Shown here: positions 2 to 2,209 of the stretch, one piece after another
Position numbering within the stretch: the first letter of the stretch is position 1
Layout of the letters: each line of letters begins with the position of its first letter
IMG/VR virus record: IMGVR_UViG_3300035162_004632
Span: 1 to 24,574 of that record
Direction: 5' to 3' (one strand)
Length of the DNA: 24,574 nucleotides
Origin: a virus
The notes under the pieces: generated by a model
Database searches by the model: none
Seen by the model: the letters and a program-made list of their open reading frames with translations, nothing else
Told to the model about the DNA's origin: nothing
Made by a program: the position numbers and the translations under genes

Positions 2-169
2 GTCGGCTTAGACCCTGATGGCGGAGAATACTACGCTTTCGAGGGTGGCAAACGTGCGGTCACAACAGAGCACTCTGTCAATATGCGTGACAAAGCGGCC
101 AACGACAACGCGCCGTCAACTGTTGGCTGGCAAGGCGACCGCATAGAGATCAAGGACTTGAACGCATGA
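2..169 (+). CDS. 3' end of an unknown phage protein (5' cut by window edge)
   Basis: An open frame runs from the left edge (first full codon at base 2) to a TGA at 167-169. It encodes 55 residues ending in DRIEIKDLNA. The protein end is polar and contains the segment KAANDNAPS; an 'AANDN' stretch is common in alphaproteobacterial proteins. The stop overlaps the start of the GcrA-like gene as ATGA (166-169), so the two genes are probably translated together. I recognise no domain. The codon pattern looks like real coding sequence, and the ATGA junction matches the compact style of the rest of the window. Confidence 0.6.
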   Translation, partial: VGLDPDGGEYYAFEGGKRAVTTEHSVNMRDKAANDNAPSTVGWQGDRIEIKDLNA

Positions 170-489
170 GCTGGAATAAAGAACGTGTCGAACAGCTCAC
201 ACAGCTTTGGATCGAGGGTTTAAGCGGGTCTGAAATTGGCAGGCGTTTAGATATTTCTAAAAGCGCCGTCATTGCCAAAGCTCGCCGCTTAGGTCTCCCC
301 TCACGCGAAAGGTGCATTACTAACCCTGTACCTTACACCGACAAACAGAAAGCGGACATCACTGAAATGGCGCACGCAGGTCTTAATTACAGAGTGATAG
401 CACGATCGTTGAATCGAACCCCGGCATCGGTCAATTCGAAAATGTCCTCTATGGGGCTGAAGACAACAGGAGCGCTATCATGGAACTAA
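166..489 (+). CDS. GcrA-like transcription regulator with a second HTH-like segment
   Basis: This 107-aa protein has an N-terminal half (about residues 1-47) that closely fits the GcrA DNA-binding domain: W at 3, a hydrophobic helix with LW, EGLSGSEIGRRL, then a recognition helix with SAVIAKARRLGL. GcrA of alphaproteobacteria works with sigma-70 RNA polymerase at promoters methylated at GANTC sites. From about residue 55 a second helical unit follows (YTDKQKADITEMAHAGLNY, then VIARSLNRTPASVNSKM), which resembles another homeodomain-like HTH. Host GcrA proteins are longer and carry a C-terminal sigma-binding part that I do not see here. An AAGGA lies 9 bases before the ATG. The gene overlaps its left neighbour by ATGA, and the next tiny ORF starts inside its 3' end. 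The family call is confident; the regulatory role in the phage is inferred. Confidence 0.82.
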   Translation: MSWNKERVEQLTQLWIEGLSGSEIGRRLDISKSAVIAKARRLGLPSRERCITNPVPYTDKQKADITEMAHAGLNYRVIARSLNRTPASVNSKMSSMGLKTTGALSWN

Positions 490-649: not shown

Positions 650-892
650 ATGACCACACGCCCAGCCATCCAGCCACGAGGAATGAGAGTCGAGCAAGCC
701 GCGTTTTACGTTGGCATGGGTCGGACAAAGTTTCTAGAACTGGTAGAAAACAAGACTTTTCCACAGCCTTTACACATTGACGGGCTTAGGATCTGGGATG
801 TACGCTTGCTCGATGCCACGCTTGACGACCTCTCACAACCCAGCCCGACCCCGAAAAAGACGGTCTCTTACGGAGGCCTCAAGAGTGTTTAA
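650..892 (+). CDS. AlpA-like HTH protein, probable excisionase
   Basis: This 80-aa protein has the layout of the AlpA/Xis-type winged-helix family. RVEQAAFYVGMGRTKFLELV (residues 13-32) is the HTH that usually reads 'eaA.ylGvsr.tfyrlv', followed by the wing region with FPQPLHIDGLRIWDVRLLD, where the conserved W precedes the last helix. Such proteins bind and bend attachment-site DNA and help the integrase excise the prophage, and some also regulate transcription. The gene lies directly before the integrase and overlaps its start by 8 bases, the usual xis-int arrangement. There is no clear ribosome binding site before ATG 650. A second in-frame ATG at residue 12 is possible but follows GAGGA with no spacer. 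The excisionase role is inferred from context. Confidence 0.7.
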   Translation: MTTRPAIQPRGMRVEQAAFYVGMGRTKFLELVENKTFPQPLHIDGLRIWDVRLLDATLDDLSQPSPTPKKTVSYGGLKSV

Positions 893-1985
893 GGGTCAAT
901 ACCCGTTCCTACAGTCCGAAGAGTCGCGTCATGACGCCGTGTGCTATTACGTCAAGCACCCTGATTGGAGACGAGACAGCGGGCGAATGATACAGATGCG
1001 CATTAAGGCCATGCTCGGCACCCCTGAATTCAAAGAACAGTACGACAGTTTGATTCTTTACGGCCCGACAGGAAAGCCTGAACGAAGGACAGACTTCAAA
1101 GACAGTTTCAAGTGGCTGTGCGGCGAATATCTCTCTTCTCTTGCCCGACTGAAGAAAACCACAAGAGCCGTTAGGACACGAGAGCTAGACCGATTGTGCC
1201 GGACTGAGATCTATCTAGAGAACGGTGATGCCACTAAGGTTGGTGACTTCCCTTACTCTGCCATCAACAGGACTATGGTTGTCGACCTTAGGGATGACGC
1301 GGCGCATAAAGTGGACAAAGACGGTGAAGACATATTCACGCCCTCAGCAGCACAGACGCGGCTCAAATTCATCAAGTACGTTCTCAATTTTGCTGTAGAG
1401 AAGGGCTACTTGAAACATTCATCGGCACAATCGGTCAAAAAGATCTCGTTCAAGTCTACTGGCTACCACACTTGGACCCTTGAGGAGATCGAACAGTTCG
1501 AGGAGTGCCACCGGGTTGGCACGAAGGCACGGCTCGCAATGGCGCTGTTGCGTTACACCCTTCAGCGCAGATCTGACATTGTGCGGCTTGGACTGCAAAC
1601 CAAGAAATCAAATAGTCTAGTTTTCAAGCAGGAGAAGACCGGCCAGCAGATGAGCTTTCCTATTCTTCCTGAGTTGACACGGATCATAGAAGCATCGCCA
1701 GTAGGAGCCATGGTGTGGCTTGAGGCTGAAAACCCAAGGAAACCCTACACCCCTGAGAACTTCGGACGACAGTTTCGAATCTGGTGTGATGAAGCGGGCC
1801 TGCCTCATTGTTCGGCTCATGGCGTGAGAAAGGGCGGCTGTGTAATTCTCGCTGAGCAAGGAATGAGTGCTCACGAAATCATGTCGATCACTGGCCACAA
1901 AACATTGCAGGAAGTGCAGCGTTACACCGAGGACGCAAGACGCGAAGTGCTGGCGGCATCCGCGATTAGAGGGCTCGCAGTATGA
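885..1985 (+). CDS. int: Tyrosine recombinase / phage integrase
   Basis: This 366-aa tyrosine-family site-specific recombinase would integrate the phage genome at attB and, with the excisionase, remove it. The catalytic residues are visible: arginine in the LQRRSDIV box (R228 or R229), H312 and R315 in HGVRKGG, H338 in the TGHK box, and the nucleophile Y347 in QRYTEDAR. The N-terminal 200 residues hold the arm- and core-binding parts (LARLKKTTRAVRTREL and following). I chose the GTG at 885 because GGAGG at 872-876 lies 8 bases upstream and the homologous-looking sequence begins there; the frame is open back to 777 but that part overlaps the excisionase gene. The stop overlaps the next ORF as ATGA. 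The putative attP lies immediately downstream, the common int-attP arrangement. Confidence 0.93.
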   Translation: MFKGQYPFLQSEESRHDAVCYYVKHPDWRRDSGRMIQMRIKAMLGTPEFKEQYDSLILYGPTGKPERRTDFKDSFKWLCGEYLSSLARLKKTTRAVRTRELDRLCRTEIYLENGDATKVGDFPYSAINRTMVVDLRDDAAHKVDKDGEDIFTPSAAQTRLKFIKYVLNFAVEKGYLKHSSAQSVKKISFKSTGYHTWTLEEIEQFEECHRVGTKARLAMALLRYTLQRRSDIVRLGLQTKKSNSLVFKQEKTGQQMSFPILPELTRIIEASPVGAMVWLEAENPRKPYTPENFGRQFRIWCDEAGLPHCSAHGVRKGGCVILAEQGMSAHEIMSITGHKTLQEVQRYTEDARREVLAASAIRGLAV

Positions 1986-2209
1986 CTGAATGTCCGTACC
2001 TTCTGTCCTTACCTAGAAAAGGTACGGACATTGAAGGTTATTTACTTAATGATATCAAACACTTAGCGGATGATATGGCGACCCCTACGGGCCTACAGAT
2101 ATCCAAACAAATCAACCAACTAGCATTCAAGGTACGGACATTAACACCCGCTATGTTCCGTATTTGTGCGCGGCTATGTCCGTACCTTTTTACCAACCAA
2201 GGAGAATAG
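1982..2209 (+). CDS. 75-aa hypothetical ORF lying across the putative attP
   Basis: ATG 1982 overlaps the integrase stop as ATGA, and GAGGG sits 8 bases upstream, so translation is plausible. The 75 residues show no domain that I recognise. The middle part (about residues 35-65, with ISKQINQLAFKVRTLTPAMF) could be helical. The ORF contains all four arm repeats and the tRNA-like core described separately. The repeats are read in different frames (for example CPYLLS and KVRTLT), so DNA-level constraint could have shaped the sequence. If it is a true gene, integration at the core would cut it at about codon 32-37. It may equally be a chance reading of attP DNA. Confidence 0.4.
   Translation: MTECPYLLSLPRKGTDIEGYLLNDIKHLADDMATPTGLQISKQINQLAFKVRTLTPAMFRICARLCPYLFTNQGE
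1989..2032. repeat. Left arm: 14-bp perfect inverted repeat plus one degenerate copy
   Basis: AATGTCCGTACCTT at 1989-2002 is mirrored exactly by AAGGTACGGACATT at 2019-2032, with 16 bases between. A one-mismatch direct copy, TGTCCTTACCT, lies inside at 2004-2014, 13 bases after the first. The repeat unit recurs twice at 2129-2188. The spacing of the outer pair gives a possible hairpin in RNA just after the integrase stop, but there is no following T-run, so I read these as protein-binding sites. Confidence 0.85.
2076..2091 (-). other. Putative attP core matching a tRNA 3' end (probably tRNA-Glu)
   Basis: Read on the minus strand the 16 bases are CCCGTAGGGGTCGCCA. They parse exactly as a tRNA 3' end: five bases of the T-stem 3' strand (CCCGT), seven of the acceptor 3' strand (AGGGGTC), a G discriminator and CCA. 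The sequence before it (CTGTAGG) does not continue into a T-loop, so this is not a tRNA gene but a fragment of the kind phages carry to restore the tRNA after integration. A G discriminator and this acceptor sequence resemble my recollection of alphaproteobacterial tRNA-Glu, which starts GACCCCT; that identification is from memory and needs a search. Confidence 0.6.
2129..2188. repeat. Right arm: second inverted pair of the same 13-mer
   Basis: AAGGTACGGACATT at 2129-2142 and ATGTCCGTACCTT at 2176-2188 repeat the left-arm unit in inverted orientation with a wider gap of 34 bases. ATGTTCCGTATTT at 2153-2165 between them is a partial copy. The orientation of the right-hand pair (minus then plus) is opposite to the left-hand pair (plus then minus). 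Confidence 0.85.

Follow-up and report, generated by a model that had tools for sequence, protein, structure and literature searches.

A putative lambda-type attP site with four arm repeats around a tRNA-Glu core, directly downstream of a phage tyrosine integrase gene

The integrase module and the adjoining repeat array

The window spans an entire virus record (24,574 bases). It contains a head module of the HK97 type (terminase, portal, and major capsid protein) and, on the plus strand of its left end, genes for a GcrA-like regulator, a small AlpA/excisionase-like protein, and a tyrosine integrase. The integrase gene ends at position 1985, and four bases separate it from the first of a series of 13-base repeats that surround a sequence identical to the 3' end of a tRNA. 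The features of the region are as follows, with arm positions counted from the first base of the core (2076):

166-489, plus strand: GcrA-like DNA-binding protein (PF07750, E 4.6e-16)
650-892, plus strand: small AlpA/excisionase-like HTH protein; overlaps the integrase start
885-1985, plus strand: tyrosine integrase, 366 aa; GTG start after GGAGG; PF00589, E 1.8e-14
1990-2002, plus strand: candidate outer left arm site, ATGTCCGTACCTT; exact repeat; starts at -86, a position common to relatives
2003-2015, plus strand: degenerate fifth copy, CTGTCCTTACCTA, possibly a weak arm site; three mismatches; abuts the first 13-mer
2019-2031, minus strand: candidate inner left arm site; exact inverted repeat; its 11-base motif starts at -55 (relatives -52 to -57)
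2053-2065, plus strand: IHF-like site TATCAAACACTTA between the left arms and the core; exact match to WATCAANNNNTTR
2076-2091, minus strand: candidate core (crossover region); last 16 nt of tRNA-Glu(TTC), CCA included
2129-2141, minus strand: candidate inner right arm site; exact repeat; its 11-base motif starts at +55 (relatives +50 to +55)
2176-2188, plus strand: candidate outer right arm site; exact repeat; starts at +100 (relatives +100 to +102)

The GcrA-like protein belongs to a family of alphaproteobacterial cell-cycle regulators, which fits an alphaproteobacterial host. The product of the open reading frame at 650-892 resembles both PF05930 AlpA (E 0.17) and TIGR01764 'excise' (E 0.0037), although neither match reaches the curated cut-off, and Sinorhizobium phage phi2LM21 has an annotated AlpA regulator at the matching position; this small protein is probably a recombination directionality factor. 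A further plus-strand reading frame of 75 aa (1982-2209), whose ATG overlaps the integrase stop, stays open through the entire putative attP and matches no family in Pfam or PHROGs; as it would be cut on integration, it is either spurious or expressed from the free form only.

The integrase carries the R-K-H-R-H/W-Y catalytic residue set of lambda-type tyrosine integrases: among 43 relatives K251, H312, R315, and Y347 are invariant and R228 is present in at least 90%, while the window protein has H338. An AlphaFold2 model (mean pLDDT 93.3) places three strands (residues 9-13, 19-29, and 35-40) and a helix (47-59) at the N-terminus, followed by a low-confidence linker (64-69), beyond which lie a helical core-binding domain and then the catalytic domain. 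Full-length lambda Int (1z1b) is the best solved match both in structure alignment of the model (Z 20.8) and in a sequence profile search (E 6e-17). The enzyme is thus predicted to be lambda-Int-like, with a separate N-terminal arm-binding fold of three strands and a helix; in lambda Int it is the N-terminal domain that binds arm sites (PMC4880445).

The array extends from 5 to 203 bp past the integrase stop, and its four exact 13-mers stand in the order plus, minus, core, minus, plus, with the 11-base motif within them at -86 (plus), -55 (minus), +55 (minus), and +100 (plus). A preliminary description, made by reading the bases, had reported four identical 13-mers as two inverted pairs directly after the integrase stop, and both points hold exactly. 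Apart from these four, the 24.6 kb contain no copy of the 13-mer with two or fewer mismatches, and in none of 200 dinucleotide shuffles of the whole window did any 13-mer occur more than twice within 250 bp. The view that the array is no product of chance is therefore sustained; the earlier emphasis on its mirror symmetry is not, since relatives exist in which all four arms share one orientation, and the symmetry thus cannot be essential. The conserved feature of the arms is their position. Among viral contigs, an inverted pair of the window 13-mer was found solely in L040 (11491-11549), where it forms a hairpin, likely a terminator, flanked by unrelated genes and away from any visible integrase; this is apparently a coincidence.

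Inverted repeats past a stop codon could also be RNA hairpins that terminate transcription between the integrase and the next gene, the core being coincidental. The left pair forms a perfect 14-bp inverted repeat directly past the integrase stop, and a run of T follows the right pair, as this explanation would have it. However, a terminator scan finds none, one and the same word lies on both sides of a core that is a crossover site in use (see below), and several relatives have direct arms on a similar grid. Since both inverted and direct arm orders are found in the family, the repeats are taken to act as DNA sites, and the likelihood of terminator hairpins is negligible.

A core identical to the 3' end of tRNA-Glu

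The core, TGGCGACCCCTACGGG (minus strand CCCGTAGGGGTCGCCA), occupies positions 2076-2091, close to the array midpoint at 2089, and is identical to bacterial tRNA-Glu 3' ends at 16 of 16 bp. Its exact sequence occurs in 12 of 385 sampled alphaproteobacterial genomes, with no occurrence of a reversed control, and in all 12 a tRNA-Glu(TTC) gene terminates in these 16 bases, CCA among them; one of the 12 holds a second copy, in a tRNA-Glu gene with anticodon CTC. Among 299 genomes sampled from the phylum, the sole match was to one of the same 12. The initial parsing of the core as a tRNA 3' end is thereby confirmed base for base on real genes, as is its assignment to alphaproteobacterial tRNA-Glu; the search for a host-group tRNA gene ending in these 16 bases, which had been proposed as a check, returned tRNA-Glu in every chromosomal case.

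In two of the 12 genomes a second, shortened copy of the 16-mer lies 13.6 kb (17-bp exact repeat) and 10.3 kb (20-bp repeat) away, and these direct repeats enclose two unrelated integrated elements. The 13.6-kb element (L217, 957-14570) has an apparent integrase, as judged from its sequence, that does not match the profile of the window's family, while that of the 10.3-kb element (L218, 601-10895) is weakly matched by the profile and lies near apparent restriction-modification genes and an apparent site-specific resolvase, likewise judged from sequence. These second copies indicate that the 16-mer is a crossover site used by several element lineages.

Several viral contigs that carry tRNAs have tRNA-Asp(GTC) genes with the same 16 bases at their end, and one prophage of the integrase family sits at tRNA-Asp (L075), which raises the question of whether a genuine attP might be directed at another tRNA with this 3' end, such as tRNA-Asp. 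The Asp cases are, however, virus-borne genes, not chromosomal ones, and all matches in the 385 alphaproteobacterial and 299 phylum genomes are tRNA-Glu or integration-truncated copies of it; a target other than tRNA-Glu is very improbable. An alphaproteobacterial tRNA-Glu as the predicted target also helps to give a host range to an uncultivated phage. Several further matches of the 16-mer in viral contigs are coincidences within coding sequences, and one contig with a tRNA-Glu near its end (L206) has no recognisable integrase at that end.

Integrated relatives, the arm grid and the arm words

Since the window integrase, used as a single query against viral contigs, yielded no relative, an alignment of four was employed as a profile, one of 12 being too diverse for searching. 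The profile found 80 viral and 80 genome loci, the genomes almost all alphaproteobacterial. The best relatives are about 35-43% identical to the window integrase, no close relative was found, and the phage records hold distant ones only, below 37% identity. In 62 of the 77 genome loci examined, a minus-strand tRNA gene lies shortly past the integrase stop, the same placement as that of the tRNA-sense strand of the window core; across the 81 loci where such a tRNA is present, the integrase match ends a median of 107 bp from the tRNA 3' end. The targets include tRNA-Phe (29) and tRNA-Glu (13), and also Ser, Met, Arg, Leu, Cys, Val, Asn, Tyr, Ala, and Asp. Of 53 family regions (110 bp past the integrase stop), 6 contain an IHF-like site, versus none of 1030 control windows.

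Three side observations were made within the family. In L095 (3220-3737), a same-family integrase is directly followed by a tandem array of three tRNA-Glu(TTC) genes, spaced by about 220 bp, whose duplication may stem from repeated rounds of insertion and loss. In L022 (9230-9541), a variant of the L035 phage, a C-terminal integrase remnant adjoins a resolvase-like gene and the core is retained, an apparent replacement of the integrase. Finally, intact family attP sites in L076 and L069 share the core-like sequence GATAGCGGCAGGAG, approximately 60-85 bp past the integrase stop, that lacks the TGG (CCA) end.

A prophage of the window phage itself was not found, and its attB is consequently deduced from the core; the expected prophages of related phages at tRNA-Glu 3' ends do exist, with an integrase of the window's family alongside. 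In four of them a second copy of the tRNA-Glu 3' end lies 44.6 kb (Filomicrobium insigne), 15.2 kb (a Bradyrhizobiaceae MAG), 10.8 kb (Rhodobacter), and 8.0 kb (Thiosulfatihalobacter marinus) away. In all four the far copy is truncated and is followed by copies of the same arm word that lies past the integrase at the near end. Rejoining the ends yields attP sites whose arms can be set beside those of viral contigs:

Filomicrobium, rejoined: -74 (plus), -54 (minus), +53 (minus), +101 (plus)
Thiosulfatihalobacter, rejoined: -82 (plus), -53 (minus), +54 (minus), +102 (plus)
Rhodobacter, rejoined: -74 (plus), -55 (minus), +50 (plus), +102 (plus)
L061, intact viral attP: -84 (plus), -52 (minus), +55 (minus), +100 (plus)
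L035, attP: -84, -52, +50, +102

The window arms fall within this grid while the arm words differ, and three of the five compared sites have the window's orientation of plus, minus, minus, plus.

The left half of the grid could be followed across 81 attL-type regions by setting the longest pair of repeats found between the integrase and the tRNA against shuffled sequence; 40 of the 81 are significant singly at p 0.05, and the inner left arms concentrate at -54. The arms of L004, L005, and L009 escape an automatic scan for 9-mer repeats, so that counts of arm arrays are lower bounds. The 47 TGTC-anchored outer left arms, the window's included, gather at -85 to -80 (22), -74 to -71 (22), and -64 to -63 (3), with none between these clusters. 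Steps of about 10 bp suggest, from position among related sequences, that the arm must keep its helix face.

The window arm word TGTCCGTACC deviates from the family consensus TGTC[CTA][AC]AC[CT]. In a register-tolerant comparison (a fixed-register version was noisy) of 46 integrases, with relatedness partly controlled, arm-word distance correlates by rank with distance in the N-terminal domain at 0.39, and at 0.30 once core-binding and catalytic distances are removed (p 0.001 by permutation); the corresponding values for the catalytic domain are 0.10 and, as partial correlation, -0.15. Core divergence correlates weakly with each of the three integrase domains and favours none of them sharply.

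These comparisons bear on the possibility that the repeats are bound by another protein of the module, for instance a repressor or the AlpA-like excisionase. An excisionase-like gene does adjoin the integrase, and excisionases too bind repeats at att sites, as described for Apl of phage 186 (PMC7498355). Against this, the arms lie at integrase-like positions on both sides of the core and are split between attL and attR, the arm word tracks the integrase N-terminal domain, the window offers no further copy within two mismatches, and a sigma-70-like promoter was not detected in this region. Binding by a protein other than the integrase is accordingly very unlikely, and arm sites of the integrase remain the preferred reading of the repeats.

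On balance, we lean somewhat towards the existence of a widespread alphaproteobacterial branch of lambda-type integrases in which a rigid four-arm attP grid (outer left at approximately -63, -72, or -83, in steps of about one helical turn; inner at approximately -54 and +53; outer right at approximately +101) is combined with arm words that drift with the N-terminal domain and cores that switch between tRNA genes. No description of such a family-wide grid with drifting words was found in the literature searched, most subscription journals lying outside it. It is this combination, in a layout common to many distant relatives, that makes the site of interest: if the reading is true, recognition of the arms and choice of the target would form modules separable from each other, and the code of the arms could be read in the sequence. 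The dozens of relatives with the same grid and different words offer a natural data set on arm-site reading by lambda-type integrases.

Proposed function and comparison with known systems

The region 1989-2188 can be regarded with high confidence as the intact attP of the lambda-type tyrosine integrase encoded directly upstream, aimed at tRNA-Glu, and it is very probably through this site that the phage inserts into an alphaproteobacterial chromosome. The original proposal of an attP with arms around a tRNA 3'-end core is thus supported, the rejoined sites of related prophages sharing the arm layout. With an internal core and neither arm pair missing, the record corresponds to the phage in its unintegrated form, in agreement with the earlier remark that phage genes lie on both sides.

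In the mechanism envisaged, the N-terminal domain of the integrase (three strands and a helix) would bind the four 13-mers, while the core-binding and catalytic domains would bind the tRNA-derived core. Host IHF or a similar DNA bender, acting at the IHF-like site at 2053-2065, would fold the arms back so that integrase subunits could bridge arm and core. Strand exchange within the 16-bp core with the 3' end of tRNA-Glu would restore the tRNA. In the resulting prophage, the integrase and the left arms would lie at one end and the right arms at the opposite end. Excision would be driven by the likely excisionase, the AlpA-like protein whose gene lies immediately before that of the integrase. 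Compact int-attP cassettes of this kind could become integration vectors for Alphaproteobacteria.

The window site belongs to the known class of lambda-type attP sites, and comparable alphaproteobacterial systems, phi2LM21 and ICEMlSymR7A, have been published. Lambda Int, whose attP comprises arms P1, P2, and P'1-P'3 together with IHF sites H1, H2, and H', shares the heterobivalent architecture, predicted for the window integrase, of N-terminal arm-binding, core-binding, and catalytic domains, and its fold (1z1b) is the closest solved one; the two attP sites are alike in having arms on both sides of the core, and the IHF-like sequence of the window between arm and core may be a further resemblance. 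The integrases are, however, 16% identical, the window has four regularly spaced arms, neither a second IHF-like site nor a Xis site was recognised in it, and the lambda core is an intergenic site whereas that of the window is a tRNA 3' end.

Sinorhizobium phage phi2LM21 (MF614627), whose integrase is 36.6% identical to that of the window, has the same order of AlpA-like gene, int, and att directly past the stop, with a 17-bp core at a tRNA 3' end; its attachment site, a 17-nt repeat, lies in tRNA-Phe (PMC5537653). It differs in its target, tRNA-Phe(GAA), and in an arm word unlike the window's. The Mesorhizobium element ICEMlSymR7A likewise employs an alphaproteobacterial tyrosine integrase, IntS, and an attP with multiple short arm repeats, all five of which are required for integration (PMC11963761); its attP of 283 bp differs in the number of arms, in their consensus TGKTGGTATC, and in lying upstream of intS (PMC11963761). 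Viral contig L018 (IMG/VR 3300038701_002920) has the identical 16-bp core 83 bp past its integrase stop and four arms, two per side, but its integrase is 25% identical to that of the window and its arms carry a word of their own, AACGGGACAC, all in one orientation.
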